From positions 6,050 to 37,797 of the IMG/VR virus record IMGVR_UViG_3300030419_003381: a stretch of 31,748 nucleotides of DNA. One strand, 5' to 3'. This document shows, piece after piece, positions 1,147 through 23,342 of the stretch (position 1 is its first letter; each line of letters starts with the position of its first letter). A model generated the notes under the pieces. The model saw only the letters and a program-made list of their open reading frames with translations. It was not told the DNA's origin and did no database searches. Source of the stretch: a virus. The position numbers and the translations under genes are program-made.

Positions 1147-1243
1147 ACCTTTCAAAGATTATTTAGAATTAGGCACACTGATAGCTGTATGTGTAGCTAT
1201 GTGGTTATGCTTAATCTATTTAATAAAATTAATGATAATGTAG
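1139..1243 (+). CDS. 34-residue membrane microprotein
   Basis: A short frame starting MFRPFKDYLEL and continuing with an uninterrupted hydrophobic stretch (about residues 12-33, LIAVCVAMWLCLIYLIKLMI), so it is a single-helix membrane peptide. The start is supported by GGAGGT at 1125-1130 with an 8-nt spacer, one of the strongest ribosome sites in the region. It overlaps the preceding gene by 8 nt. Function is unknown; candidates are a holin-like, superinfection-exclusion or host-membrane-modifying peptide. Confidence 0.55.
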   Translation: MFRPFKDYLELGTLIAVCVAMWLCLIYLIKLMIM

Positions 1244-1247
1244 AATA

Positions 1248-1358
1248 ATTATAACTGCCTATAGTAGCTAGATCTGATAAAACTGAGCTATTGAGGTTAA
1301 TGGGCAAGACAAGAATATCATGGTAGCACCTGGTACAAGTTCTTGCCCCAGTTATAAT
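1248..1358 (+). ncRNA. Candidate three-way-junction structured RNA
   Basis: A gene-free stretch containing nested helices. P1 is a perfect 10-bp pairing of ATTATAACTG (1248-1257) with CAGTTATAAT (1349-1358). P3 is a perfect 8-bp pairing of GGGCAAGA (1302-1309) with TCTTGCCC (1341-1348), which abuts P1 without unpaired bases on the 3' side. P3 is capped by a smaller hairpin (about 1316-1335). P2 (1262-1269 with 1286-1293) contributes 8 bp including two G-T wobbles. The layout is a three-way junction with coaxial P1/P3, just 5' of the ribosome site for the gene at 1377. It could be a cis-regulatory leader or a stand-alone small RNA. It does not fit a tRNA or the hammerhead consensus. Confidence 0.5.
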
Positions 1359-1376
1359 AAAATAAGGAGATAGGTA

Positions 1377-1586
1377 ATGCTAGGATGTACAAGTACTAGT
1401 ATAAGTGATATTATTACATTTTATAGAGCTCAATTAGCTAAGTTTGAAAAAATAGGGATAGGTGGATATACTGAGTTTAAGGTAAAAATTACAGAAGAGG
1501 TAATGGATATTACAAGAAAGAGATTATATGAATTACAAACCAAAAAAGAGAATTTAATTTATAGGGAGAGAAATCATGGAAAATGA
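1377..1586 (+). CDS. Hypothetical small protein (69 aa)
   Basis: Not recognised. The protein is mostly charged and probably helical after a short N-terminal Ser/Thr-rich segment, with a basic C-terminus. The ATG follows AAGGAGATAG, and the frame overlaps the next gene by 11 nt. Its leader contains the candidate structured RNA at 1248-1358, so expression may be controlled by that fold. It sits two genes upstream of the ubiquitin-like gene, which may or may not be meaningful. Confidence 0.6.
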   Translation: MLGCTSTSISDIITFYRAQLAKFEKIGIGGYTEFKVKITEEVMDITRKRLYELQTKKENLIYRERNHGK

Positions 1587-1827
1587 AGTTCAGCCTTTTA
1601 TAGTATTCATGTCAATAAAAAATGAAAAAGGTAAGGTAGAAGATATACCATTAAGACCATTTTCTTATGAAGGGGAAGCAAAAGTTTACATAGCTGGATA
1701 TGTTGACGCTATAGTTAATCATACTGGCGAAGCAAATCATGCTGATGTAATGGGTCAGTTTTCAATACGAAATGTAACTGGCGAGATTAACGTTAATAAA
1801 TCAGATAAGGAGACTAAAAATGTCTAA
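1576..1827 (+). CDS. Hypothetical protein (83 aa), directly upstream of the ubiquitin-like gene
   Basis: Not recognised. The sequence alternates short hydrophobic beta-like stretches (PFIVFMSI, KVYIAGYVDAIVN, GQFSIRNVTGEINV), suggesting a small mixed alpha/beta fold. GGGAGAG precedes the ATG. It overlaps the previous gene by 11 nt and the ubiquitin-like gene by 8 nt, so it is almost certainly co-translated with the latter. A partner or target of the ubiquitin-like protein is possible from position only. Confidence 0.6.
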   Translation: MENEVQPFIVFMSIKNEKGKVEDIPLRPFSYEGEAKVYIAGYVDAIVNHTGEANHADVMGQFSIRNVTGEINVNKSDKETKNV

Positions 1828-2029
1828 AACAGTAAAAATACTATCAGGTGGTGGTTTCGTAACTAAAGAAACACGTGCTGAAACAATGAGTGAATTGCGA
1901 GAAGAAGAGGGTATTAGCTCTACTGCTTCTGCAGCTGTAGGTGGAGTAAATGTAAATAATTCATATCAAATACAAGAAGGTGATATTATTGCATTTGTAA
2001 ATAATGATAAAACTGGTGGTATAAAATAA
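1820..2029 (+). CDS. ThiS/MoaD-like beta-grasp ubiquitin-like protein ending TGGIK
   Basis: A 69-residue protein with the layout of ThiS, MoaD and related ubiquitin-like proteins. It has a first strand (TVKIL, residues 4-8), a TMSELREEEGI helix segment (22-32, compare TVAELL in ThiS), a middle strand (AAVGGVNVN), then IQEGDIIAFV (51-60) matching the LxxGDxVAF signature of MoaD. It ends in Gly66-Gly67 followed by Ile-Lys. In this superfamily the C-terminal di-glycine is adenylated by an E1-like enzyme and used for sulphur transfer or conjugation. The two residues after Gly-Gly imply proteolytic trimming. JAB peptidase, E1-like and candidate E2 genes lie 1.8-4.7 kb downstream on the same strand. 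No molybdopterin or thiamine genes are present, which favours a conjugation role. Confidence 0.75.
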   Translation: MSKTVKILSGGGFVTKETRAETMSELREEEGISSTASAAVGGVNVNNSYQIQEGDIIAFVNNDKTGGIK

Positions 2030-2039
2030 AGTCTGTCTC

Positions 2040-2436
2040 AATCCTTGGGTAGAGGATGTAAAATAAGCTACCCAAAATTTAACCATAGTTTCTAAGATAT
2101 TATCGATGCCACAGTTAGTTAGAGCCTGGATAGATAAGCCTGGTCTTAGACTAGAACAAAACAGGTGAGATGCGTACCGACGTGCGGTCTATGAGGCATA
2201 CTGCATAATTTGTTACTATGGTATTCTTACCACACCCCGGCATAAAGCTATGACCCACTTTTTTAGCCTATCTTGCAGATTAGCTCCGGGGTGTATCTTA
2301 TTATCCATAAAGAGCCATAGGCAATTCAAGTGATTAATTTCGCTTGACCACGTAAAATAAGACGTTAGTGTTTTGTTTCGAATTGCTATTATAAGGCTAC
2401 AAGTTGCTTATAAAAAACTGTAAAGTCCTATGGCTA
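2040..2436 (+). ncRNA. Candidate large (about 400 nt) structured RNA
   Basis: The 420-nt gap 2030-2449 has no convincing frame but many long complementary segments: TTGGGTAG 2045-2052 with 2068-2075 (8 bp); ACCATAGT 2082-2089 with 2215-2222 (8 bp); TCTAAGA 2091-2097 with 2144-2150 (7 bp); ACCG 2176-2179 with 2185-2188; ACACCCCGG 2232-2240 with 2286-2294 (9 bp), extended by AGCTA 2246-2250 with 2281-2285; and AGCCATAGG 2313-2321 with 2427-2435 (9 bp), which encloses CAATTC 2322-2327 with 2380-2385, a stacked hairpin 2328-2345 and ATAAG 2391-2395 with 2407-2411. It is more GC-rich than flanking genes. The size recalls the large ornate RNAs found in phages (GOLLD, ROOL), but I could not match a consensus. 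It lies directly after the ubiquitin-like gene. Confidence 0.6.
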
Positions 2437-3640: not shown

Positions 3641-3815
3641 AATAGATAAATTGAAAAGTTGTAATAAGTGCAGAAAAGTTTGGCATAAAACCTATAGAAT
3701 AACCAGAACAGTTAATTATAATGGATACAGTTATTATAATGACTTTCCACATTATGGATTAGAAAAAGTGGATTGTCCAAAATGTAAGGAGATAAAAAAT
3801 GGCAGCAACGCTTGA
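3630..3815 (+). CDS. Zinc-ribbon microprotein (61 aa) upstream of the E2-like gene
   Basis: Two well separated Cys pairs, CNKC (residues 11-14) and CPKC (about 49-52), flank a tyrosine-rich beta-like segment, the pattern of a four-cysteine zinc ribbon. An AAAGGAA site precedes the ATG. The gene overlaps the previous frame by 11 nt and the E2-like gene by 17 nt, so it is translated with the conjugation genes. A zinc ribbon in this position could be a substrate-binding adaptor, but only its location supports that. Confidence 0.55.
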   Translation: MKTRIDKLKSCNKCRKVWHKTYRITRTVNYNGYSYYNDFPHYGLEKVDCPKCKEIKNGSNA

Positions 3816-5082
3816 TGCAAGAAATAGGTTCTTAGATGGTATTCGAGATATAGATAATATTATAGAAAGAATAGCATTAGGACCACAAGAGGAAGTGTTA
3901 GAAAAGTTTACAGAGCTAAATAGAAGATTTGGTACTGATTTTAGATGTACGCCAACATTTAGATGGGCACCTGGATTCTATAAAAAGTTAATGAATGAAG
4001 CTGGTAGATTATCTAATATTACTATTCAAAAGAATAAAGTATCTACTTATGCCAATCAAATACAAAATGGTAGATGGTATGTAGATGCTTTTATGACTAA
4101 AATACGAGAGATAGATAATAAACTATATTATTTAAGGAATAGCGGTATTTGTTTTCAAGATAATACTGATGATGTAAATAGAGTGCTTGGAGAATACAGA
4201 GATACTATATCTGATAGTATAGATGTTGCAATGGAAACATATCCTAATATGAATATATCTATTTATCATGGAATACATAGTGGCGATAGATCAAGATCAG
4301 TTCATGCTATTACATTTCACATTTATCTAGAAAATACTTGTATGAATATAAATATGGGAGGTGAAACTGTAAATGTTCCAATGGGAGACTTAGATATTAT
4401 TATATCTGTTGATTTAATAAAAAATATAATGAATAGAATAAGAAATGTTAGCAGATATTCACAAGGAAATACACAAAGTACTCATAGTAGCAATTGGAAT
4501 GGTGCTATATTTCATCCTCAAGAAGAAAATATACTATTTCCATATATTGGCAGAAATACATGGAATCATTCATTAAATGTTAATTTCGCTGAAGGACAAA
4601 ATACACCTGCAAAGTTTAATAATGTATGCTTTGGTGATTATACAAGTGAAATAGTAGAAGCTGCATGGAAAGGCGATATATTAGCTTTGTTTGCATGGAT
4701 TAATATATGGACTCAAAACTTTAATGTAGGTAGAACAGGACCTTTAAATGGATTTGAAACTATGTTTCATGGTATATGGCCTGAAATGGCAAGTGAAGTA
4801 TGGGAGTCAAGCGGAAGACTAGGTCATGTTTCTAGAATGGAAGGTTGTAACTATGCAGAAGTATTACAAGAAGCACAGCCTGCACAAGATGAATCATATT
4901 GCGATAGATATCAATGTATTCTTCGTGATAATTGTGCTGCATATAGGGCTATGTATATACCGCCAGAAACAACAGAAAATAATAGAGAAGTAGCTAATCA
5001 AGAGGGAGAAAGAACATTAACAGAAGCTGAAATACTAGCAATGTATCAAGGCATAAACACAGTGGATGTAAATCCATTTTAA
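3799..5082 (+). CDS. Candidate E2-like (ubiquitin-conjugating fold) protein, 427 aa
   Basis: The N-terminal about 130 residues are helical and unfamiliar. Residues about 150-330 hold an E2-like reading: a beta-rich region (AITFHIYLE, DLDIIISVDL), then an FHPQ motif with His239-Pro240, and about 35 residues later NNVCFGD with Cys277 followed by a long helix and WINIW. Bacterial E2-like families typically show an HPH/HPN motif, then N-x-C-x-G-(D/N) with the catalytic Cys, followed by hydrophobic helices. The C-terminus adds a possible metal site (C350, C368, C373, C379) and an acidic tail. AAGGAG lies before the ATG. JAB and E1-like genes follow immediately (13-nt gap, then overlap), the strongest support for an E2 role. 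It could instead be a substrate or scaffold of the system. Confidence 0.5.
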   Translation: MAATLDARNRFLDGIRDIDNIIERIALGPQEEVLEKFTELNRRFGTDFRCTPTFRWAPGFYKKLMNEAGRLSNITIQKNKVSTYANQIQNGRWYVDAFMTKIREIDNKLYYLRNSGICFQDNTDDVNRVLGEYRDTISDSIDVAMETYPNMNISIYHGIHSGDRSRSVHAITFHIYLENTCMNINMGGETVNVPMGDLDIIISVDLIKNIMNRIRNVSRYSQGNTQSTHSSNWNGAIFHPQEENILFPYIGRNTWNHSLNVNFAEGQNTPAKFNNVCFGDYTSEIVEAAWKGDILALFAWINIWTQNFNVGRTGPLNGFETMFHGIWPEMASEVWESSGRLGHVSRMEGCNYAEVLQEAQPAQDESYCDRYQCILRDNCAAYRAMYIPPETTENNREVANQEGERTLTEAEILAMYQGINTVDVNPF

Positions 5083-5095
5083 TTAAGGAGATAAG

Positions 5096-6046
5096 ATGAA
5101 TCAAGACTTTTATATAAGTGAAAAAGACTGGAATAAAATCCAGAATTATGCTCAGGCAGCTTATAATAGTAGTAAATCTGAGATAGGCGGTATGTTAGTA
5201 GCTATTGAAGATAAAGATGGTGATTGGGAATTAAAGGATCCAGTCATACTTAAGCAAGAAATTAGCGGGAGTAATTGTGTATTAGATAAAGACGATCTAG
5301 CTTTATATTATACTAAAGTGGGAAGTAAACTCAAAAATAAAAACTTTCGCTTTGTATGGTGGCATAGTCATCACACAATGGATGCTTTCTGGTCAGGCAC
5401 AGACCTAACTGCTATTAAAGAATATTCTGATGGAGATTTTAGCTTTGCTTTAGTCGTAAATCTTAAAGAAGAATATAAACTTAGAGTTTCAATATGGAAA
5501 CCTTTTGAGGTACATGAAGATGTAGATCTAACTATCATGTCTAAAGAAAAGAAAGTACCTAAGAAGATAGAAGATGAAGTTGATGATAAATGTAGTGAAA
5601 TTTTTCATAATTATACTACATCTATATATAAAAATGGCAAATGGAGTAACGTTGACAAGGGAAAGTCGAATCAGATGACTCTAATGGATACCAAGGATAC
5701 CAAAGTTGGTGGTCTAAAGTTTAATCCTGAGTTATCTGGAGACACAGAAGATTATATTTATGCTTATGGTATGGTAGATGAGATGAATAAAAGATATTGT
5801 GATGGCAGATTGACATATGAAGGATGGATTCTGATGGCTAAAGATGTAAATAAGTTACTTAAAAGCACTTATGAAAGTCCTTATAGGGTAGAACTTGTAA
5901 CTGAGAGTGTACTTTCAGATCAAGTTATGTTATCAACACCGCATGAATATATAAACGTAGACCCAACCATAGATCCTCTTTTCGATGAGCACTATGAAGA
6001 TTGGCTAGATTATAAATCATGGAACGCATCATATGGAGTAAAATAA
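5096..6046 (+). CDS. JAB/JAMM-family metallopeptidase (deubiquitinase-like), 316 aa
   Basis: The first about 145 residues form a JAB/MPN domain with every metal-site residue present: Glu29 in SEIGGMLV, then H90-S-H92 followed by exactly seven residues, Ser100 and Asp103, the HxHx7SxxD signature of active zinc isopeptidases. Such enzymes cleave after the Gly-Gly of ubiquitin-like proteins, either maturing precursors or removing conjugates. The C-terminal about 170 residues (from about 150) are charged, partly helical and not recognised; they could bind partners. TAAGGAGAT precedes the ATG. Its stop overlaps the E1-like ATG (TAATG). The neighbouring genes and the TGGIK end of the 1820-2029 protein make precursor processing the likely job. 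Confidence 0.88.
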   Translation: MNQDFYISEKDWNKIQNYAQAAYNSSKSEIGGMLVAIEDKDGDWELKDPVILKQEISGSNCVLDKDDLALYYTKVGSKLKNKNFRFVWWHSHHTMDAFWSGTDLTAIKEYSDGDFSFALVVNLKEEYKLRVSIWKPFEVHEDVDLTIMSKEKKVPKKIEDEVDDKCSEIFHNYTTSIYKNGKWSNVDKGKSNQMTLMDTKDTKVGGLKFNPELSGDTEDYIYAYGMVDEMNKRYCDGRLTYEGWILMAKDVNKLLKSTYESPYRVELVTESVLSDQVMLSTPHEYINVDPTIDPLFDEHYEDWLDYKSWNASYGVK

Positions 6047-6705
6047 TGATAAATACAAGATCATCAGAGTTAGTAAATAACTTAGAAGACTTTACCTTTC
6101 ATATCTTGGGCTGTGGGGCTATTGGTAGTTCCGCAGCTCTTCAAATAGCAAGAATGGGTGCAACTCAATTTTGCTTATATGATATGGATAAAGTAGAAGA
6201 AGTAAATATAGGTGTATCACAATATACCTATGATGATATAGACAAACCTAAAGTAGAAGCATTATCAAATCATTTGAGAAAACTTGGAGTATTTAAAATT
6301 AATGAAGTTAATGGTAGATTTTCTCAGTTTAAACCTCAAGGTAAAAATGATATTGTTATATTAGGATTTGATTCAATGTCATCAAGATTAGAAGCAGTAG
6401 AGGCATTATTCAGCATCCCAGGAATAAAACCATTATATATAATTGATGGTAGAATGGGAGCTGAACATTATCAGCAATATGTATTTGATAATCCTACTGT
6501 ATCTAAATACAAGAAGACCTGGTATTCAGATGAGATTGGTAGCCCAGAGCCTTGCAATGCAAAAGCTACAAGCTATTGTTCTAATCTATCGGGTAGTATG
6601 ATAGCAAATACAGTAAGGAAATTAGTAACTGAACAACCTTTCAACAGGTCATTTTCATTTAACTTTCCTAATATGTTATTGGATAAGTCAGTTATGGTTT
6701 CGTAA
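6046..6705 (+). CDS. ThiF/E1-like adenylating enzyme (219 aa)
   Basis: A Rossmann-type ThiF/MoeB/E1 fold protein. From ATG 6046 the nucleotide loop GCGAIG is at residues 22-27, the strand-end acidic residues D46-x-D48 follow, then N54...Q59 and K69, and the strand GFDSMSSR has D109 and R114. Cys170 and Cys178 near the C-terminus are candidate transfer or structural cysteines. E1-like enzymes adenylate the C-terminal glycine of a ubiquitin-like protein. The Arg that often precedes Gln in N-x-x-RQ is Ser58 here. I prefer ATG 6046 to an upstream in-frame ATG at 6019, because 6046 has GGAG at 6035-6038 and overlaps the JAB stop. It is the last gene before the terminator at 6749. At 219 residues it is a minimal E1. 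Confidence 0.87.
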   Translation: MINTRSSELVNNLEDFTFHILGCGAIGSSAALQIARMGATQFCLYDMDKVEEVNIGVSQYTYDDIDKPKVEALSNHLRKLGVFKINEVNGRFSQFKPQGKNDIVILGFDSMSSRLEAVEALFSIPGIKPLYIIDGRMGAEHYQQYVFDNPTVSKYKKTWYSDEIGSPEPCNAKATSYCSNLSGSMIANTVRKLVTEQPFNRSFSFNFPNMLLDKSVMVS

Positions 6706-11441: not shown

Positions 11442-14325
11442 TAGTTAAAGCAGCTAAAGCAGCAGCCTTTACTCTCTTGTCTTTAGCAGAACTCTTACTA
11501 TCTATATCTACATTTGGAAGTATTGGAATCTGATTATAGGTTTTATCAGCAAGACCTTTCATTACACCTTTTCTCCAATTTTTCATCCACCTTGGTTGAA
11601 AGATACCAGATTCAACCCTTAAAGCTTTTTCCATTTGACCTTTCATAAGAGCTGGCATTGTATGCCATCCTGTTCTGGCTCCCTGTATGCTAAATATACG
11701 GGCAACATTATACCACCAATCAGGATCTGATGGGTCATAATTAAGGTTTCTATGCTCTTCATATTCTGGAGAACCAGAAGCTTGATCAAGGAAATCTAAC
11801 AATTCAGCAGCTGTTAATATATCGCTTATAAAAGGACCAAGATTACCTGTTATAGGATTTTTCCCATAATACGCAGCATATTTTTCCTTTTCATCATCTG
11901 AAAATATATAATTATAAAGCTTAGAAGCATCTTCAATAATTGGATTTTCTATAATTGATACTCCAGATCTTTGAGTTCCTTCTTCAGCCCTGTCTTCTTT
12001 AAAGGGACTACCAAAGGCACCAAATACTCCTCCTAAATCACTATTAAATGCTAATCCTGCTAAACCTGGAAGCAATGTGTAAATAGAGGCCATTCTAAAC
12101 ATCCTAGAAAAACTTTCACTAACTACCATTTCTCCAGTTATTGGATCTCTTTCCTTGAAATTAAAATCTTTAACATCTCTAGCAAAATCCTTAATAAGAT
12201 TATATTGCATATCGAAAAATGCAAACTTAAAATGTTGATACTGACCTATAACTTTACCACCTTTAGATCTAAGTATTTTAGCCTTTGCCCATGTATCATA
12301 ATCATAATGTAAAGTTCTAACCATATCATTAGCAGCATTGCCTGCATCGTTTTCAATCTTGTCATATATATCTTTTTTTGTTGCTTCTCTTCCAAGCTTT
12401 TTCCTTAAGTTGGCTGCATGATGATCATATCTACTTTGTTCTATCATAAAAGCATTTGCAAAAGCAATTTTAAAAGTATTTAACCTATTAGCATTTTCAG
12501 CCCATGCCATTGGTTTTGCTGCAAAATTAGTAAATTTTTCAGCAGTTAATGAAGCTCTCTTTAAAGTGGTTCCTTTTGTTTCAGGTATAATTTTACCTAC
12601 AGAGTTTAAGGTAAATCCTTCAGGAACATATAATATATCCATTGATCCACCTGTAGCAGCAGATGTCATTGTCCACCTGTCTCCCATCTTTAAACCAAAT
12701 CTTCTTAATTGCCTTTGAAGTAATGCTTTATTATCTCTAGCCTTTCCAGTTTCTTTACCGCTAGGATCATATTCTCTATTACTTCTTTCGTAAAACTCTT
12801 TAGATCTATTATAGCCTTTTCTTCCAAAGAAAACCCAATTATATAATCCTTGAGTCCTATTCTTTAATGCTCCTCTTACACTAAATCCTAACTTAGATAT
12901 ATACTCAAACCCATTTATAATCTGAACCATATGGTCCATGCTATCCATAGATCCTTTATGATGATTGATTGCAGAATCTCTAATCTCAGTAAGAATAGAT
13001 AGCATCTCACGAGAATAATCTCCAACATCCCCACCTTTCATATCAGCATTATTGCGAAGCTCTTTAAATAAGGTTTTAGTACCTTCACTAAATGCATATT
13101 GTATTCTTGCCCTTGAATTAAAGCTAGCTACATCATGAGCATATTTATTTAAATAATATATAGGATCAAGAGATGAATATAAATCTGTTTCAGGAGCTTT
13201 AAATTTTAATCTAGTTGTATTTAAATCACTTTCCATAAGGCGTTGAGCATCTCTATATAAAGCTTCAGCATTATCATACCTAAAATTAGTCTTATCTTTA
13301 TTTAATGCATACTCTGATATATTAGATACTATATCAGCTAATTCAATCACATAACTTGGAGAATATTTCTTGACACCTACCGCAAACTCTCCAGTCTCTT
13401 TATCAAATACTCTATAAGGCTCATTCTTTTTTGTCTCTGGATTAAAAACTTTCATTTCAAATCCATAGTTTTCACCAGTAGGAACAGCTAGCAATTTATC
13501 CTTGCTGGATTGCACTAATAAATGATCAATCTTTTCTTGTATTAAGTCAATAGATTTATTTAAATATCCAACATCCTCTAATGATGAAAGCTTAGATCTT
13601 ATAGCCATCTTTGCCATAGTAGCTCCATTTAATAGATTTTGCATAGAATTAGCACGCATTATATTCCATTCTCTCTGTATCATTCTTTCATTTTCATTCT
13701 TTGGTTGCTTTGAAAAATCTAGCAATCCTTGAAACCTACGCAATACTTGTCCCCCTACAGGAGTATTATTGTTATCTAAACTTCCAACTATTTTAAATAG
13801 CTGATTAATCATTGCTGTTTTTTGCTCTTGAGTTTTAGCCCCTATTAAATTTCTTTCTAGCTGTTGAAATTCTTTGAACTTTTTGCTATCCCAGTTTGCA
13901 TCTTTAATCATTCCGTATAATCCATCAATCATAAATTTAATATGTTGAGCACTTTCCTTTGTTTGTCTTTGATGGAATGATAGAGTCTCTGCTACATTAT
14001 TATAAAATTCTTCTCCTCCTTTTACATTTCTTACTAAAGCTTTTGGAAGCTTAAAGTATCGAGAGAATAAAGATTTACTTTGACCATAATTGTTTACAAA
14101 GTTCTTAACTTCTCTTTTGTATCTCTTTAATTCATATGGTTCTATCTTAATATTATCAAGATCAAATGGTTTGTTCTTGTTAGCTTTTCTCCAAAGCCAT
14201 TCTGCTGTTTCTGCTGTATTGTCTCCATTCTTAACTATCTTATAATTATTATCTAGTTCTCTACTTACTTTAAGAAACTCATCAAATCTTTTTCTTTGTA
14301 TGGGATCAGTTGTCAGACAATTCAT
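11434..14325 (-). CDS. Large internal virion/ejection protein (963 aa)
   Basis: I start at ATG 14325, where AGGAG sits 7 nt upstream and the ATG overlaps the previous stop (TAATG). The protein is largely helical and charged. A segment with WAENANRLNTFKIAF and, further on, A-NDMV-TLHYDY and GKVIGQYQHFKFAFFDMQ (about residues 630-740) resembles the C-terminal region of large polyvalent phage proteins (LPD38-like), though this is a by-eye resemblance. A hydrophobic glycine-rich stretch (SIYTLLPGLAGLAFNSDLGGVFGAF) could insert in membrane. It follows the 3005-residue gene and is probably co-injected with it. No enzymatic motif is seen. Confidence 0.6.
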   Translation of the reverse strand: MNCLTTDPIQRKRFDEFLKVSRELDNNYKIVKNGDNTAETAEWLWRKANKNKPFDLDNIKIEPYELKRYKREVKNFVNNYGQSKSLFSRYFKLPKALVRNVKGGEEFYNNVAETLSFHQRQTKESAQHIKFMIDGLYGMIKDANWDSKKFKEFQQLERNLIGAKTQEQKTAMINQLFKIVGSLDNNNTPVGGQVLRRFQGLLDFSKQPKNENERMIQREWNIMRANSMQNLLNGATMAKMAIRSKLSSLEDVGYLNKSIDLIQEKIDHLLVQSSKDKLLAVPTGENYGFEMKVFNPETKKNEPYRVFDKETGEFAVGVKKYSPSYVIELADIVSNISEYALNKDKTNFRYDNAEALYRDAQRLMESDLNTTRLKFKAPETDLYSSLDPIYYLNKYAHDVASFNSRARIQYAFSEGTKTLFKELRNNADMKGGDVGDYSREMLSILTEIRDSAINHHKGSMDSMDHMVQIINGFEYISKLGFSVRGALKNRTQGLYNWVFFGRKGYNRSKEFYERSNREYDPSGKETGKARDNKALLQRQLRRFGLKMGDRWTMTSAATGGSMDILYVPEGFTLNSVGKIIPETKGTTLKRASLTAEKFTNFAAKPMAWAENANRLNTFKIAFANAFMIEQSRYDHHAANLRKKLGREATKKDIYDKIENDAGNAANDMVRTLHYDYDTWAKAKILRSKGGKVIGQYQHFKFAFFDMQYNLIKDFARDVKDFNFKERDPITGEMVVSESFSRMFRMASIYTLLPGLAGLAFNSDLGGVFGAFGSPFKEDRAEEGTQRSGVSIIENPIIEDASKLYNYIFSDDEKEKYAAYYGKNPITGNLGPFISDILTAAELLDFLDQASGSPEYEEHRNLNYDPSDPDWWYNVARIFSIQGARTGWHTMPALMKGQMEKALRVESGIFQPRWMKNWRKGVMKGLADKTYNQIPILPNVDIDSKSSAKDKRVKAAALAALTRL

Positions 14326-17300
14326 TAACACTCTCCTAAGTATTTTTGCTTTAATTCAAACTCTGCATTGTTTTTGCCTTTACTTTGAAGTTGGAAATTA
14401 GTACCTTTTTCATATATTGATCTACTGTTAAAAAAATGTCCATCTGGATCTATATCTATTCTATCTACACCTTTCCAAGATTCATTCATAAACCTAATAA
14501 CTTCAGTAGGATTAGGAACTTCATTTAATTTATTCCCATATAGATTATATGTAGCTCTATATAGCTCTACAGGATCCATAAAATATGAACCGCTTAAATA
14601 AGACAGCATAACATTTTTAGCAGTATTATCTAAGTTAGGATCTAAAGCCCATTCAGGAAGAGTTTTAGGCTTAGGTAATATACCTCTGTCAGAAGGATCA
14701 CGCATAGCTCCTTGAAACTTAAATGCATCTCCTTTTAATGCAGGATTATATTCTAACATATATGCCTTCATGTGATTATCTACTATATCTTTATGTAGCC
14801 TGCCTGCAATATCTTTTCCTAAGTCTGAAGAATCATCTGTTTTTGCTCTATCTAAGAATGAAAAGACTAATCTTTCATTATATTTATTTTGATGAAAGCT
14901 AGGAACATATTGACTTCTACCCTCAAGTGCATTATATCCTACTATATCGTAGGTATTTTTTCTTACTTTTGGAGCTAGCAAATTGTACAATAATTGTTTA
15001 GTCATAACTTCAGATCTACCATACATTGATAGCCCTTGAATATCTTTGATAGCATCTGAAAGGACTCTTAGATGAGCCTCTGTAACCACCCCAAACTTAT
15101 TAAATGATGTTGCTCCATCTTGGGTTAATAGTTTTGAAGCTTTATTTAAATCTTTTTTATACTTTTTTACTATACTATTAACTTGCATTAACTCAATATC
15201 GGTTACTATCTGTCTTGCAAAAGCTCTACTCATTGCTCTTCTTTGAGCTGAAACATTTCCATTTTCTATTCTTACTTTTGCATAGTTCTGAGCTAATATT
15301 TCTCCCTTTCTATAAGTAATTAATTGACCTGGTTTATATTCTTTGATAGGGAAAACATCATAGCCAGTAGCACTCTTGTCATTCTTGTTTCTTATGAATT
15401 TTAAAACAGGATAATTTCTTCTTGTACTACCTGCCTTATCTTTAACTTCAAATTTATTTTCACTATAAGTAGCATTAAGATTAAACTCCGAGACTAATTG
15501 CTTCCTATTATCTCTCATATTCTTTAAGGTTTCAAATTTATCTTTATTTATAGAGCCACCTCTTCTACCATGCATTCTTAAATTATCTAATACATTCTCA
15601 ATTTGCTCTACTTCCCATGCTACATACTCCATTTCAGCCCATTTATCCCGATCTTTAATAGTCTTCTTTACATATGAACTAAACCGATCATTTGATACAG
15701 GAGTACTTGAGGCCATCATACTTGCCAAATCACTTCCAGATGGTATACCTCTTTTGAAATTTTGTCTTAAGCTATTTTCTATAGCTATCAAACCTTTTAT
15801 TAATGGATGACTTGATTGGCCTAAGGAAGCACCACCAATGTCCTTACTTCCACCTAATCTCTGATCCCCTAAAAACCTTAATATATCATTAGATAAAACT
15901 TTAAGCTCATTACTGTCTCCTAAGTTAAAAGAACCGTCTTTGCCCTTATAATGATTATGACCAGCTAAGCTTATTTTTCTTTTTGCTGATTGAAAAGCAT
16001 TATTAACTTCCCAAAGACTCATCTTCCTTCTGCTTCCGTCAGACATATATTCTGTCATATTAGCAATATTAAATATCTCAGCAATAGGCAGCATTATTTC
16101 CCTAACCATTTTCGAATGAAGCTTTCTGAAGTCTTTATTTGTGACATCTACAGCCTGAACTACTTGTCCAAGATCACCTGCACCCATTTTTGTCTGATAT
16201 ATTTCAAACATGCCTTCTATTTTTTCGTAAAGCATATTTTCTATTTGCTTAGGATCTATCTTTGATGGATTTTTATATATATCTATAGTCTCTTTAATTA
16301 AAGACTTAGTATTTTGTATAGCATCAACAAACTGGGCTCCACCTTTAAACTTAACAGTATATGTTGATCTTCTACCTTCATGTTCAAATAATTCCATTCC
16401 AGAATTTTTATGATAATAGTCTGGCCTTAATCCAGGAAGCAATTCATTTTCTTTATTTTTTACTGCTGCAAGTTGATACAGAAACGATGAAACAGAATGT
16501 GACCTTACTAATGCTGGTCTCTTTGCAGCTAACTCCATCATGTCAAGTCTATATTGTTCTACATCTACACCAGATATAGTATCCATTCCTTCTAGCACTT
16601 TAAAGAATACATCTTTAGCAGGATCTTGATAGCCAGAGAAATTATAAATCTCTTTAATAACCTTTCCAGGCAATGCAAAAAAGCTAGAAGATTTATCTAA
16701 ATCAAAATCTGCATCCTGAGTATCAATGACATCTAAATAATTCATCTCTGATACAGGGCCTTTTTTATGATTTAATAATTTTTCTACTTTAGTAATAACC
16801 CTATCATTAGCCCCAACCATTGGAGTTCTAAGGTCAACCTTAGCTAAATGTATATTCTTATATGAGTTTCCACCGGCAATAGTCTTTGCCATTGAGAATG
16901 CAGTATTATTAGTAGTTCTAAAGTCTAGATTAGGATCTATTGATTCTCCTCTTCTTCCATCAAGATACATTACAAAATCACCGATAGTATGAACATCTCC
17001 AGACTGTAATGCCCTATCAACTATTTCTTTATAATCTTTCGATATATCACTTTCTAACTGCTTTAGAAGCTTACTATCGGCAGCCTTTCTCTTTTTTGCA
17101 GTTATATCTCTTTGAATCCCAAATCTAATGTCATCTAACCCAGGCCCCATTAATTGTCCATCAAAAGTATATACTAAGTCAACTCCTTCTTTAATGCCCA
17201 TAGGAGCGAACTCTTTATACTTAGCTGCTAAAGATTTATCAACATTAAATATTAAGCTTATACCTTCATTATTACCTTTGAACAGCCCAGATATAGGCTT

Positions 17301-20300
17301 ATTCCAAGAATAATATGACATTCCACTTCCCCCAAAAGATGTTTGAGTCCCACCTTCTCTTATCCCTATCGAAAGTCCATCTCCAGCTGTCATTGCTTCA
17401 TAAGCTCCATTTTTCATTTGGCTAGAAGTAAAGTTTCTTCTTCCTAGATATTCAGATACAACCATCTTTTCAATTTGAGGAGCCATATATTCAAAGGAAG
17501 GAATACCTCCTGATTGTATAATCCCTTCAATACCCATTACTTGCATTAAATTATCTCCATGCTCATAATTGATACCTTTTAAATGCTCAACTATTTTCCT
17601 GCTAGCAAATGGGCTTTCACTTAACTGAGCATGCCTTTCAAGTACATCTCTAACTGAGTTTTGAGAACCTGTAATTGAATTTATAGCGTCTGTAGCATCT
17701 TTTGTAAAAAAGTTTGTAAAAGCACTTGACATCGTAGCATCATGCTCTCCGCTTATTGACTTTATAAATATAGCTTCTCTAGGCAGTTCATATATATGGT
17801 CAGATGTGATATTGTTCTTAATCAAATCTCCAAGATGCTCTTTCCAACCTACCCTTAAATCATTACTTGATATTTCTGGCAGATTAAATATTTTAGCTTG
17901 ATATTCAGCATCTGCACTAGACTTAACTGCATTCTTCTTTACAGCACTCTTGAATGTAATTGAGTCAAACATATAATTCCCATCTGAATCTTTCATCATA
18001 GAGTCAATAACTGGATCATATTTATATGCAGTCTTTCCTACATATACAGTAGCACTACCATCAGAAATATTTATTCGAGAATCAAGCTCAATAGGCTTTA
18101 CAACGACATTAAATCCTGTAATTTTTCCATCCTCATCGCGAGTAAACCAATCAGACCTTGCTCCCTTTTGCATTAATATTGAAGTCATTTCAGGCAATGA
18201 TAAGTATTTCTCACCATTAACAATAGATGCATTAATATTTTCGTAAACTTCCATTTGAGCCTCAGCTTCATTTCTGGCTTCAGCTTCAGACATTCCTCTT
18301 TCTTTGATGTATTTTTGAGTTAAGTCTTTCATTCCTCTAACTTGAGTATTAAAAAATGATTCTGCTGCTTTTTTCTCTTGAGGAGTTCCACCTTCATCTC
18401 TTATAGTTAATGTTCTTTGAGGTTTTATAGATCCATCTGGATTAAATGTATGCTTTAAAAATGTATCATAACCATCTCTAAGTATATGATCTTGAGGTAG
18501 CATTCTATCTAAATAAATTTTAGCAAAGTCAGCAGTAGTCTTATCTAATGCCATTCCTGTTCTTGGACTATCTAACTTTAGATATTTCATAAGCTTTCTT
18601 ACATCTGCAATATCATTATTTTTATTAACTACATTAGATAAATCATCATGAAAGCTCCCTAGCATTCTAGTCATTAATAATATATGTTCTGCATTATCTC
18701 CAGTAGTTTTTATCTTTGCATTTCCGTTTTTATCTATTTCTGCTCCTAATTGCCTTCTCAAGTAATCCTCTGCTTTAGCTTTATCACCAACAGCAATTTC
18801 AAATTTCCTTCTATTTTCAGAGGTAGGAGAAGACCAGGATTGAATAACTTTATCAAATGCATTTTGATGTAAGAAAACCATTGTCTTTTCATCTAGCGTT
18901 ATGGCTCTTGTTTGGGCTGTACCTTTTCTGCCATCACCAAAACCAAATGTTCCTAACTGCTCAAGTATAGCTTTATCTCCAGTTGATAATATATCTCTAG
19001 GATTAATATTAGCTCCAACACCAGACTCTACTATACTATTAAGCTCTCTCATAACATCAGGGGTTAATCTAGTTCTAATAGTTCTTTCATTGGCCCATCT
19101 ATTCCCAGCTAATAATAATTGACCAGATTGCAATCCAAGCATTTGTTCCAACTTCACAATGCCTGTATTCCAAGTGGATATATTTGCATGAGATAATTCT
19201 AATACTCCATTGTTAAACACTGCCATAGGAAATTTAGTATTAGCTAAACCCGATTGCATTATGAACATAGTATCCATAACAAAATCTTGATACATTTGCT
19301 CTGAAGTAGACTTCCCTTTTTCATTTGGTGGTAACAATTCCCATTTAGCTTCAATAGAAGCTTTTTGAGATTCAACAACAGGCTTAATGAATATATCTAT
19401 ATAATTTTCATGTGTCATACCTAACATCTTTTGTAATTGATCAAACCCTGATATAGGATCTCCAGATATAGATGCATCATCTACAAGCTTTATGATTCTT
19501 TCTTGCTCTTTTGTTAGTTTTTCTAAGCCTCTAATAAGCTCAATAGGATTCTTTTTAAATTGCTCAACCTTAGTCATATCATTATTAAACCATCTAGCAG
19601 CATATTGAGAGTCTGATATAGATGTATTACCAGCATGAATCTTTCCACTTCTATCTGTCATTCTTAAGTTATCAATAATAGATTCAGTATAACTGTTAAT
19701 ATCCTGTATCTCATCAAAGTTTAATTTTTGTTCTTGTATCTTTCGCTGCTCTACTATAAAATCTCTAAGCGTATTTGTATAATCTCTTAATGCATCTGGT
19801 ACATTAGAATCTGTTTGCATTTTCTGATTCAAATCACTAAGCTTATGCATTCTATCATATACAGACCTGAATCCTATAATATTATCTTGACTTTGATAAA
19901 TAGATAATAACTCAAGTAAATTATTATTCTCTAAAGATAGATCGGAAATTCTAGAACTCAACTCCTTATTTATAGTTCCGTCTGACTCTACTAATTTTTG
20001 GCTTTCTGTAATCACATCTTTAATAGTTTTATTTAAGCCTGAAGTAACATACATTAAAGATTCTAAATCAAGAGCAGATACTCTGTCTGCATTGACAATC
20101 ATCTCTTGCATAAACTGTTTAATCTCTTGCGGAGAATGATATTCTAAATTAATATTATCTCTATTAAATCTAATAAGAGATACATCAGTAAGATTTCTTT
20201 TTAATGGATTTTCTACTATTTGCTTATAGTCTCTTATAAGCTTTCTTGTTTGCTCTGTGATTGCATTTTTTTCTGGACCTCCAGTATTTTCATACTGCAA

Positions 20301-23300
20301 TAATAAGGTCTCTATCTTGTCTGCCTCAACGATATGCAGCACATTTCCTTTTCTATAAGCAAAAGGATTATTAGCATTAAGTGCTGTAACTAAAGCTCTT
20401 CTTAGTCCTGTGCCTAGATTAGGATTTCCAGTTAATTTTGATGTTATTTGTTGCTCAGTATATCTCATAAAGGAAGATAAAACTTCTTGATTGTTTAGTA
20501 GAGTTTCACCTGAATATGATCCTAATTCTTTTACAATATTCTGCTCAACTTTTTCAAACTGTGCTTTTGTAATCTCTCTTATGCCAGTTCCAATATCTGG
20601 AGATAGCATGCCTTTTAATAAATTTAAATTTTCTAACGCTTGCATATTCTCTTTTGAGACGTTAACTAAATCTTGAGCTGTAAACTCTAAACGCTCGTTG
20701 CCTGAATATATATCACCAATTATTTCATTGTACCTGTCTATATTCCCTTCAGATTTTGTAAATATTTCATATGCTTTTCTATTTCTTTCATGAAGTTCCC
20801 ATGTGTGCATAGCATGCCAAACTGGCTTTGATGCCATTATATTAGGATCAGGGAATCCAGATTCAGGAGAACTGTAATGAGGTACAATTTCTCTCCAATT
20901 TAAACCATCTTCACTAAGTGTAAGTTGATGCATCTTTTCTGCATTTGTTTTATATAAGGCATTAAATCTTGATAATTGATCTTCTGTAGGCAATGCCCCT
21001 CTCCAGAGTTGTCCACCTTTATCAGAATTTATAGATACAAATCCAGATCTTTGTGCTTCTATAATAGCATTGTGTAATGCTGAGGCTGAATCTACATATA
21101 TATTTTTAGTTTGTCCTGTTTCATCTACTCTATAATGATTACTTTTAATACTCTCTAAAAGATCAACAGCAGTCTTATGTATTTGAGGCTTACCCATTGG
21201 GTCAAGATCAATCCTTATACCTAATGATTCAAAGGAATCTATTATATACGATATCTCATTATTTCTAATTGATTCGGACATTGCTCCAACAGCATTCTGT
21301 CTTTTCTCTTTTAATACAGTTTCAACAGTAGTTGGGTCTAAGATCCTCCCATCTACTCTTATAGAATTTAATTCTTGTATATATCTGTCTGTTTCTTCTG
21401 CTGTCATAGGACGAGTTTTTTTATATCCAGCTCCTATTTCTCCAGAGTCTTGTAATTTACTTGCAACAAAAAATTGATCTTTAAAAGACTTTAATTCTGC
21501 CTGTAATTCTGATTTCCTAGAAGTATTTTTTTCAGCTGCTATTTGAGCAGTTAGATCAGCAATCTTTTTATGAGCATGAACTTGCCATATTTGAACTGCA
21601 CCAGTCTTATCAGCATTTAATGTAGTTATTATTTCATCTGCATCTGCAAGATTTTCTCTAACTTTATCATGTATTTTTTTCAGCTCAGGAGAATTTTCAT
21701 CAACAGCCTTACTTACTTTCCCTATTGCCTTCTCATTATCTGCAACCCTTGCCATTCCAGCAATTTTATCTAATACTTCAGGTTTATATCCTAATATATC
21801 CATAGTTTTAACCCATGAATTAATTTCTCCGCCTGTACCATCTACTCCTGTTTTTTCAAAGAATCTAGGCATTTTAGGTCTACCCTCAAATGTTTTGCCT
21901 CTCTTCATATAGATCATTCCTATATAATGATCTGCTAATAACTTATCATAAGGATAATCTTCTGTCCCTATAATATCTCTTGATTCATAATACATGGTCC
22001 CATTCATAAGGAGAGATCCAATAGAAGCTCTCCAAAAGGACTCTGCTCCATCTCTTCCTATTTCACTTGCTAGGTTTGCGATCAATCCCTTGTTTAACTT
22101 TCCTTGAGCATCTCTATGTGGAAATACTTCTTTCTTAACCTGTCTAAATGCTTGCCTTAATATATCTACCTGCTCAGGCTTTAACTTGCCGTCAAGTAAT
22201 GATGTAGAAAATCCTTTAACATTACTCAACCAAGATACTGGTTTACCAGCACCACCCCACATCGTCTTTAAAGATAACTGCAATTGTCCTGGGGTCATTC
22301 TTTCTACGTTTCTAAATCTATTTCTAAAGCCTCTTCCTATATGCCCTATATCAGCCATCATTCCACTTTTCCCGAACTGTACTGCCTTACCGCCAGGAAT
22401 GTATCGTGTAGGGGCTAATACGGAGCCTAAAGCAGCCCCATGTAAAGCTCTTGCATACCAAGGTTTAAATAATCCAGGGGCATCTGATTCTTCTAGTTCA
22501 TAAATATTAGCAGCTATTTCACCAGCTTCACCCACCAAAGTATCAAAGGTTCCAAGTAATACTGCTTCATATGCTGAATCTCCAACTATTTGAGATATTC
22601 TGGGACCTACACCCGCTGCACGTAAAGATGTGGATATAGAGTTTCCAAATGTTTTAGTTAAGCTTTCTCCAGCTTCGCCTAATGCCATTTTAGTTAATGC
22701 TGTTAATTGCTGCGGATTGATATTTGGAATATTCTCAACCAAAGTTTCTGTCATTATTTTGCTTGCCTGAGCTTCTATCCTAGGGTTTGCAAGAGGATTA
22801 GTTTTTAATGCTCTTCTTGTAAAGTATGACCATGGTTTAACGCCATTTAATTCTGCATCTAACCCTTCTTTTATAGCCTTTCTGCCTGTCTTTATAATAT
22901 CCTCACCAAGCTCTTCACCTATTTCTTGGCCACCTTTTTCAAATATTTCTTTAGCTACTTTTTTACCAGCAGGTTTAACTCCTGCATTGGCCAATTTAGA
23001 TATTGCTCCTAATCCTTTTCCTATTGTACCTATACCACTTATAATACCTGCACCTGTACCTAAAGCATATCCAACTTTACCAGCTAAAGATTCATCCTTC
23101 CATTCATCTGAACCAAAGCTTCTAGATAATTCTCCCTTAGATGCTATATCAGCTACCGTTGGAAGAACAAGCGACTCCCCAAAACCCCATGCAAAGTTTC
23201 CAAGAAGATCTCCTACTGGAGTATCAACAAAGCCCCTGTCCTCACCAAGGGCTTCTTCTTGTCTTTGAGCTTCTTCTTGCTGAAGTCTCTCTAGCTCTCT

Positions 23301-23342
23301 TTTGCGTTGCTCTAAAGCTAATCGCTCTTCGCGTGTCATCAT
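14325..23342 (-). CDS. Giant virion protein with RNA-polymerase-like DFDLD motif (3005 aa)
   Basis: A 9-kb gene with no internal stops. The N-terminus has a charged coiled coil, then a glycine-zipper segment (GYALGTGAGIISGIGTIGKG, from about residue 91) like phage ejection proteins. Near residue 2172 an R-T-P motif is followed, about 40 residues later, by DADFDLDK (D2212-F-D-L-D2216) and a Pro at 2225. Multisubunit RNA polymerases have R-Q-P, then NADFDGD-x6-P, in the catalytic double-psi barrel, and the crAss-like phage virion RNA polymerase has DFDID. Much of the rest is long helices and unrecognised. AAGGA precedes the ATG. Flanking genes look like other ejection proteins. The likely role is an injected virion RNA polymerase; the alternative is a giant cargo protein with a fortuitous acidic motif. 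Confidence 0.6.
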   Translation of the reverse strand: MMTREERLALEQRKRELERLQQEEAQRQEEALGEDRGFVDTPVGDLLGNFAWGFGESLVLPTVADIASKGELSRSFGSDEWKDESLAGKVGYALGTGAGIISGIGTIGKGLGAISKLANAGVKPAGKKVAKEIFEKGGQEIGEELGEDIIKTGRKAIKEGLDAELNGVKPWSYFTRRALKTNPLANPRIEAQASKIMTETLVENIPNINPQQLTALTKMALGEAGESLTKTFGNSISTSLRAAGVGPRISQIVGDSAYEAVLLGTFDTLVGEAGEIAANIYELEESDAPGLFKPWYARALHGAALGSVLAPTRYIPGGKAVQFGKSGMMADIGHIGRGFRNRFRNVERMTPGQLQLSLKTMWGGAGKPVSWLSNVKGFSTSLLDGKLKPEQVDILRQAFRQVKKEVFPHRDAQGKLNKGLIANLASEIGRDGAESFWRASIGSLLMNGTMYYESRDIIGTEDYPYDKLLADHYIGMIYMKRGKTFEGRPKMPRFFEKTGVDGTGGEINSWVKTMDILGYKPEVLDKIAGMARVADNEKAIGKVSKAVDENSPELKKIHDKVRENLADADEIITTLNADKTGAVQIWQVHAHKKIADLTAQIAAEKNTSRKSELQAELKSFKDQFFVASKLQDSGEIGAGYKKTRPMTAEETDRYIQELNSIRVDGRILDPTTVETVLKEKRQNAVGAMSESIRNNEISYIIDSFESLGIRIDLDPMGKPQIHKTAVDLLESIKSNHYRVDETGQTKNIYVDSASALHNAIIEAQRSGFVSINSDKGGQLWRGALPTEDQLSRFNALYKTNAEKMHQLTLSEDGLNWREIVPHYSSPESGFPDPNIMASKPVWHAMHTWELHERNRKAYEIFTKSEGNIDRYNEIIGDIYSGNERLEFTAQDLVNVSKENMQALENLNLLKGMLSPDIGTGIREITKAQFEKVEQNIVKELGSYSGETLLNNQEVLSSFMRYTEQQITSKLTGNPNLGTGLRRALVTALNANNPFAYRKGNVLHIVEADKIETLLLQYENTGGPEKNAITEQTRKLIRDYKQIVENPLKRNLTDVSLIRFNRDNINLEYHSPQEIKQFMQEMIVNADRVSALDLESLMYVTSGLNKTIKDVITESQKLVESDGTINKELSSRISDLSLENNNLLELLSIYQSQDNIIGFRSVYDRMHKLSDLNQKMQTDSNVPDALRDYTNTLRDFIVEQRKIQEQKLNFDEIQDINSYTESIIDNLRMTDRSGKIHAGNTSISDSQYAARWFNNDMTKVEQFKKNPIELIRGLEKLTKEQERIIKLVDDASISGDPISGFDQLQKMLGMTHENYIDIFIKPVVESQKASIEAKWELLPPNEKGKSTSEQMYQDFVMDTMFIMQSGLANTKFPMAVFNNGVLELSHANISTWNTGIVKLEQMLGLQSGQLLLAGNRWANERTIRTRLTPDVMRELNSIVESGVGANINPRDILSTGDKAILEQLGTFGFGDGRKGTAQTRAITLDEKTMVFLHQNAFDKVIQSWSSPTSENRRKFEIAVGDKAKAEDYLRRQLGAEIDKNGNAKIKTTGDNAEHILLMTRMLGSFHDDLSNVVNKNNDIADVRKLMKYLKLDSPRTGMALDKTTADFAKIYLDRMLPQDHILRDGYDTFLKHTFNPDGSIKPQRTLTIRDEGGTPQEKKAAESFFNTQVRGMKDLTQKYIKERGMSEAEARNEAEAQMEVYENINASIVNGEKYLSLPEMTSILMQKGARSDWFTRDEDGKITGFNVVVKPIELDSRINISDGSATVYVGKTAYKYDPVIDSMMKDSDGNYMFDSITFKSAVKKNAVKSSADAEYQAKIFNLPEISSNDLRVGWKEHLGDLIKNNITSDHIYELPREAIFIKSISGEHDATMSSAFTNFFTKDATDAINSITGSQNSVRDVLERHAQLSESPFASRKIVEHLKGINYEHGDNLMQVMGIEGIIQSGGIPSFEYMAPQIEKMVVSEYLGRRNFTSSQMKNGAYEAMTAGDGLSIGIREGGTQTSFGGSGMSYYSWNKPISGLFKGNNEGISLIFNVDKSLAAKYKEFAPMGIKEGVDLVYTFDGQLMGPGLDDIRFGIQRDITAKKRKAADSKLLKQLESDISKDYKEIVDRALQSGDVHTIGDFVMYLDGRRGESIDPNLDFRTTNNTAFSMAKTIAGGNSYKNIHLAKVDLRTPMVGANDRVITKVEKLLNHKKGPVSEMNYLDVIDTQDADFDLDKSSSFFALPGKVIKEIYNFSGYQDPAKDVFFKVLEGMDTISGVDVEQYRLDMMELAAKRPALVRSHSVSSFLYQLAAVKNKENELLPGLRPDYYHKNSGMELFEHEGRRSTYTVKFKGGAQFVDAIQNTKSLIKETIDIYKNPSKIDPKQIENMLYEKIEGMFEIYQTKMGAGDLGQVVQAVDVTNKDFRKLHSKMVREIMLPIAEIFNIANMTEYMSDGSRRKMSLWEVNNAFQSAKRKISLAGHNHYKGKDGSFNLGDSNELKVLSNDILRFLGDQRLGGSKDIGGASLGQSSHPLIKGLIAIENSLRQNFKRGIPSGSDLASMMASSTPVSNDRFSSYVKKTIKDRDKWAEMEYVAWEVEQIENVLDNLRMHGRRGGSINKDKFETLKNMRDNRKQLVSEFNLNATYSENKFEVKDKAGSTRRNYPVLKFIRNKNDKSATGYDVFPIKEYKPGQLITYRKGEILAQNYAKVRIENGNVSAQRRAMSRAFARQIVTDIELMQVNSIVKKYKKDLNKASKLLTQDGATSFNKFGVVTEAHLRVLSDAIKDIQGLSMYGRSEVMTKQLLYNLLAPKVRKNTYDIVGYNALEGRSQYVPSFHQNKYNERLVFSFLDRAKTDDSSDLGKDIAGRLHKDIVDNHMKAYMLEYNPALKGDAFKFQGAMRDPSDRGILPKPKTLPEWALDPNLDNTAKNVMLSYLSGSYFMDPVELYRATYNLYGNKLNEVPNPTEVIRFMNESWKGVDRIDIDPDGHFFNSRSIYEKGTNFQLQSKGKNNAEFELKQKYLGEC

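Follow-up and report, generated by a model that had tools for sequence, protein, structure and literature searches.

A predicted ubiquitin-like cassette with a tailed modifier in an environmental phage

Results

Gene content of the locus

The sequence analysed is a 31,748-nucleotide stretch (hereafter the window) of a 52.8-kb environmental (mostly marine) bacterial virus record, IMG/VR IMGVR_UViG_3300030419_003381 (positions 6,050 to 37,797). The record carries genes for a P22-like portal, a terminase, an Erf-like annealing protein and a primase-helicase, i.e. those of a tailed phage. Within the window, a small gene for a ubiquitin-like protein (UBL) lies near genes predicted to encode an E2-like protein (p427), a JAB/JAMM metallopeptidase and an E1/ThiF-like enzyme, and this block is situated beside the replication genes (ERF, primase-helicase) on the strand opposite the structural genes. 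The features are as follows (window coordinates):

1576..1827 (+): 83-aa protein of unknown family, conserved directly upstream of the UBL in part of the family (23 loci) and here overlapping the UBL start by 8 nt
1807..1812 (+): Shine-Dalgarno-like AAGGAG, 7 nt before the ATG of the UBL
1820..2029 (+): UBL, a 69-aa predicted beta-grasp ubiquitin-like protein, in precursor form
2015..2020 (+): codons of Gly66-Gly67, invariant in 41 distinct homologues
2021..2026 (+): codons of the Ile-Lys tail, variable in length and sequence among homologues
2079..2305 (+): structured RNA region with covarying helices, downstream of the UBL
3799..5082 (+): p427, a 427-aa E2-like protein (predicted conjugating enzyme) with a C-terminal Cys cluster (C350, C368, C373, C379)
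4627..4629 (+): Cys277 codon of p427, invariant in 40 of 40 homologues; proposed E2 active site
5096..6046 (+): JAB/JAMM metallopeptidase, with E29 at 5180-5182 and HSH-x7-SxxD at 5363-5404
6019..6705 (+): E1/ThiF-like adenylating enzyme, with invariant C32, C179 and C187; judging by homologue starts, the real start is probably the ATG at 6046, overlapping the JAB stop

Several non-coding and coding features lie outside these four genes. The region just downstream of the UBL stop (2079-2305) folds into covarying helices, with 57 pairs in 7 sequences, 97% of cells paired and 16 pairs with compensatory changes, exceeding all 500 shuffles on most measures and all slid controls. A model of its first part recovered independent members in two further loci (L008 and L011; L numbers denote individual retrieved viral loci), also just downstream of the UBL, and no Rfam match was found; this is a possible new structured RNA. 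A second non-coding stretch at 1240-1376 (+) contains a strong long hairpin (-35 kcal/mol) and is 93% identical over 108 nt in L082. In addition, 14325-23342 (-) encodes a 3005-aa protein with a DADFDLDKSS motif, reminiscent of the DxDxD of virion-packaged phage RNA polymerases.

The UBL and its variable tail

Translation of 1820-2029 gives a 69-aa protein beginning MSKTVKILSGG and ending NNDKTGGIK, with Gly66-Gly67 followed by Ile68-Lys69. The AlphaFold2 (AF2) model is a beta-grasp fold (mean pLDDT 83) with residues 64-69 disordered, and its best solved matches are MTH1743 (Z 9.0), ThiS, MoaD, TtuB and ubiquitin/SUMO (Z 7-9 to ThiS, MoaD and ubiquitins). By sequence, members of the family reach Pfam ThiS only weakly (11 of 32, best 1.3e-4). 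Scans of IMG/VR with the E1 and the UBL gave 80 and 8 loci, respectively, which contained 54 UBL homologues representing 41 distinct proteins (window included). Lys64, Gly66 and Gly67 are invariant in the 32-member alignment, and all 41 distinct proteins end their conserved region in K-[TVGK]-G-G, with conservation stopping exactly after Gly67. The existence of homologues lacking Gly-Gly had been named beforehand as a condition that would refute the precursor reading, and none was found among these proteins.

What follows Gly-Gly is highly variable, with tail lengths among the 41 proteins of 0 (15 proteins), 1 (4), 2 (5), 3 (5), 6-10 (7), 18, 21, 31 and 60 (2) residues. The two 60-aa extensions belong to close viruses (L003:929-1108 and L004:5354-5533), are conserved (97% identical to each other) and were found nowhere else in the loci retrieved. 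On an E1+JAB tree of 40 genomes, the presence of a tail changed about twice but its length at least 17 times, although nearly every genome of the tailed clade in this tree set keeps at least one residue. Tail lengths fit random placement of the next stop codon (expected mean about 13 codons, observed mean 10.6, median 3; chance of nearly all staying tailed 0.44), and the tail is compatible with neutral drift of the stop codon. The tail has no conserved sequence, and a mature Gly67 is the common denominator. The observation in the earlier note that this protein carries Ile-Lys after Gly-Gly, in contrast to ThiS and MoaD, is thus confirmed, but a tail is common rather than general, as more than a third of homologues stop exactly at Gly-Gly, and the precursor reading fits the tailed clade and not the whole family.

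JAB, E1 and E2-like proteins

The JAB protein has a complete JAMM motif (E29, H90-S-H92, S100, D103). HxHx7SxxD is present in 75 of 75 long homologues, including those next to tail-less UBLs, and E29 is at least 90% conserved. The best solved match of its profile is an Rpn11-like JAMM (6fjv, E 7e-6), which is the Caldiarchaeum enzyme. The laboratory-shown job of this type in Caldiarchaeum is to cut a tail off pro-ubiquitin (PMC5654768). The E1 matches Pfam ThiF (2.9e-16), and its closest solved protein is UBA5 (E 5e-11), with MccB and PaaA also among the solved matches of its profile. It carries GCGAIG, D55xD57xV and the invariant C179 and C187 within EPCxAKATxYC, a place where Ub-type E1s keep the catalytic Cys. 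Its length leaves no room for a rhodanese part, as in the bacterial conjugation-type operons (Iyer 2006, PMC1779556).

The assignment of p427 as E2-like is weaker and is made with moderate confidence; it is not an established E2. No family was detected with Pfam, PHROGs or PDB sequence profiles, Foldseek against the PDB returned nothing below E 0.7, and Foldseek against viral models returned six likely homologues. However, the alignment of 40 p427 members shows [HFY]P[YF]I...C277...W304...P315, with P248, C277 and W304 invariant in 40 of 40, Cys277 followed mostly by L/F/T and G/D/S, and P315 in a P-[LYIM]-N-like motif, which is the order of the E2 signature HPN...C...W...PN. The model runs helix, three strands, helix, strand, active-site loop, two helices, an E2-like topology, and Tsg101/Vps23 UEV and Ube2W are the recurring structural matches covering the mixed alpha/beta part, although at a low Z (VIA, about 4-5) tied with unrelated helical matches. 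The C-terminal cysteine cluster (4846-4935; C-x2/4-C-x5-C) is conserved in at least 37 of 40 homologues, with C379 in all, and is a possible zinc or Fe-S site, maybe an E3-like module, but no E3 candidate is established.

All 49 loci that contain both UBL and E1 have p427 and JAB between them in the same order, while in the loci lacking one of them the block lies at the contig end. In this virus, the UBL gene sits 1.8 kb from the E2-like gene. In a search for host or provirus copies, none of 32 pattern matches in genome contigs encoded a relative. Plasmid relatives of the E1 were only distant ThiF enzymes; of three loci opened, one was a CBASS operon and the other two showed no comparable cassette.

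Similarly ordered blocks in named phages

The E1 has 76 matches in phage records, comprising Flavobacterium Fpv-type, Bacteroides crAss-like and similar, mostly uncultured phages. In Steigviridae of the Crassvirales (crAss001, DAC17, cr85_1 and others) and in bajarodcaudo virus, the E1 follows a JAB gene, which follows a gene for a 370-445 aa protein with invariant HSH and C-x-G, which in turn follows a gene for a small protein whose conserved N-terminal domain ends in K-x-[KR]-S-G-[A/G/K] and carries a long extension (111-212 aa); in crAss001 this block is gp79-gp78-gp77-gp76. Flavobacterium phage Fpv3 shows the same order. In crAss-like cr106_1 (L100:2695-3898), an HNH endonuclease gene lies exactly between the UBL-like domain and its extension, splitting one gene of the relatives into two ORFs and leaving ...KIKSGKF at the end of the first. 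Homology to the window is shown only for the E1 (E down to 1e-17 by tblastn) and the JAB (profile match 6e-9 for Fpv3 and 8e-6 for L090). The UBL and E2-like counterparts are matched by position and motif alone, since direct profile comparisons of the UBL with gp79 and of p427 with gp78 were not significant.

Discussion

Predicted function of the cassette

We conclude, with moderate confidence, that the locus is most likely a phage-borne ubiquitin-like conjugation/deconjugation cassette, which would be a nearly complete ubiquitin-style tagging system owned by a phage. In this view, the UBL is made with a short tail after Gly67, and the JAB most likely removes the tail where there is one and later cuts the UBL off its targets. 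The E1 would adenylate Gly67 and take it as a thioester on a conserved cysteine (probably Cys179), before passing it to Cys277 of p427, which would place it on lysines of host or phage proteins. The position beside replication genes suggests action during early or middle infection. The analysis itself establishes the genes, their synteny, the intact catalytic motifs, the UBL fold as a model, and the invariance of Gly-Gly and Cys277, whereas every chemical step, including cleavage by the JAB and covalent attachment, as well as the target proteins, the timing and the benefit to the phage, are inferred in the absence of any biochemistry. The weak E2 assignment, the lack of an established E3 candidate, the 1.8 kb between the UBL and E2-like genes and the compatibility of the tail with neutral drift of the stop codon also weigh against this view.

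The interpretation in the earlier note is only partly supported. It had proposed that a JAB peptidase encoded in the same block would expose the glycine, and that this precursor logic is typical of ubiquitin-type conjugation and argues against a pure sulphur-carrier role. The ubiquitin-like nature of the protein, the invariant Gly-Gly with a variable tail and the JAB with an intact motif are all supported. However, 15 of the 41 homologues end exactly at Gly-Gly and keep the same intact JAB, so tail removal cannot be its only job. Furthermore, a tail plus JAMM does not exclude sulphur carriage, as the Streptomyces sulphur carriers PtmS2 (Gly-Gly-Met-Val) and PtmS3 (Gly-Gly-Cys) are capped and such caps typically require a protease, as with QbsD (PMC6006322). 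A better argument for conjugation, not used in the note, is the E2-like protein, together with the lack of a rhodanese part on the E1 or of sulphur-pathway genes among the proteins scanned, and the retention of JAB without a tail, as expected of a deconjugase.

Alternative explanations are considered less likely. The UBL could be a capped thiocarboxylate donor like QbsE or PtmS2, with the JAB removing the cap, the E1 activating Gly67 and the loaded sulphur being passed to a small molecule or RNA with p427 as the acceptor enzyme. The known one- or two-residue caps in sulphur carriers, the weak ThiS matches, the structural similarity to ThiS, MoaD and TtuB, and the ThiF matches of the E1 are consistent with this hypothesis. 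It nevertheless appears unlikely, given the E2-type signature of p427, the conservation of JAB in tail-less clades, and the absence of a rhodanese domain on the E1 and of any sulphurtransferase or thio-pathway gene among the virus proteins scanned, although not every ORF was scanned and the host could supply a donor. It is also possible, but unlikely, that the tail has no function, being neutral read-through to the next stop that is trimmed by JAB or any host peptidase, with the JAB selected only as a deconjugase. The tail-less homologues, the frequent changes in tail length and the fit to random stop placement agree with this, whereas the near-universal retention of at least one residue in the tailed clade and the conserved 60-aa extension of two close viruses do not, and a tailed UBL must be trimmed before its Gly can be adenylated, so a trimming step is needed in any conjugation or sulphur model. 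A peptide-modifying E1 of the MccB/PaaA kind, with the small protein as the substrate of a toxin or small-molecule pathway, is very unlikely despite the profile matches to MccB and PaaA, as the substrate here is a folded (predicted) beta-grasp domain with invariant Gly-Gly, accompanied by a JAMM peptidase and an E2-like protein, and no transporter or immunity gene was seen next to it.

A broader and more tentative hypothesis, which we regard as less likely than not, is that two large groups of tailed phages (these environmental podovirus-like viruses and Crassvirales/Fipvunavirus) own a complete ubiquitin-style pathway (tailed UBL, E2-like, JAB, E1), expressed with the replication genes and used to tag host or phage proteins during infection. 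In crAss-like phages, the tag would be made fused to a carrier domain, much as eukaryotic ubiquitin is made fused to ribosomal proteins. Ubiquitin-like conjugation has been shown as bacterial antiphage defence, and a phage-owned set with its own tag, E2-like protein and isopeptidase would turn that round. It would also give a reason for the unexplained 'thiamine biosynthesis protein' (ThiF) annotation in crAss-like phages, and as crAss001 is cultured with its Bacteroides intestinalis host, the question can be tested directly.

Comparison with known systems

Bacterial UBL/E2/JAB/E1 operons and phage UBL/JAB pairs have been described (PMC1779556), as has a JAMM-matured pro-ubiquitin in an archaeon (PMC5654768), whereas a phage-borne four-part set, or any paper on a ubiquitin-like system in crAss-like phages, was not found in literature searches, which covered open-licence papers only, so that this absence is weak evidence. 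The tail assembly proteins I (UBL) and K (JAB+NlpC) of lambda/T1 also combine a phage UBL with a conserved Gly and an adjacent JAB, and Iyer et al. already proposed that the JAB cuts after that Gly (PMC1779556). These proteins are part of tail assembly without E1 or E2, and this identity was rejected for the window, as the block lies beside ERF and primase-helicase genes and the JAB protein matches no NlpC family. A PRTRC cassette was likewise rejected, as the E1 scores PRTRC_ThiF at 24 bits against a 144.75 cut-off and Prok-E2_D is not among the listed hits of the 40 p427 members. The capped sulphur carriers QbsE/PtmS2/PtmS3 share a 1-2 residue cap after Gly-Gly, a JAMM protease and an E1-like enzyme, but act by thiocarboxylate chemistry in natural-product pathways and have no E2-like protein (PMC6006322).

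Bacterial operons 6a-6e of Iyer et al. 2006 (UBL + E2-like + JAB + E1) and type II CBASS Cap2/Cap3 share the co-occurrence of an E1 without rhodanese, an E2-like domain with conserved His/Cys and a JAB, but usually have the E1 fused to JAB or E2 and are bacterial or plasmid-borne, with no full phage cassette seen among them (PMC1779556). BilABCD antiphage systems also bring together UBL, E2, E1 and JAB genes, and their UBL is cut by the JAB to expose Gly (PMC11354881). The corresponding four-gene set is present in the window, although its E2 member is not certain. Bil is a bacterial antiviral defence with two beta-grasp domains in its UBL and a large E1 with a Cys domain, whereas the phage set has a single-domain UBL, which led us to reject a two-domain Bil UBL, and a 220-aa E1. 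The Caldiarchaeum subterraneum pro-ubiquitin / E1 / E2 / srfp / Rpn11-JAMM operon (PMC5654768) encodes, as predicted for the phage set, a ubiquitin-like protein made with a tail after Gly-Gly (nine residues), a JAMM protease that trims it and deconjugates, and E1 and E2 genes alongside. It differs in being an archaeal cellular operon with a small RING E3 and a recognisable E2, while in the virus no RING was found and the E2-like protein is highly divergent, with extra N- and C-terminal parts.
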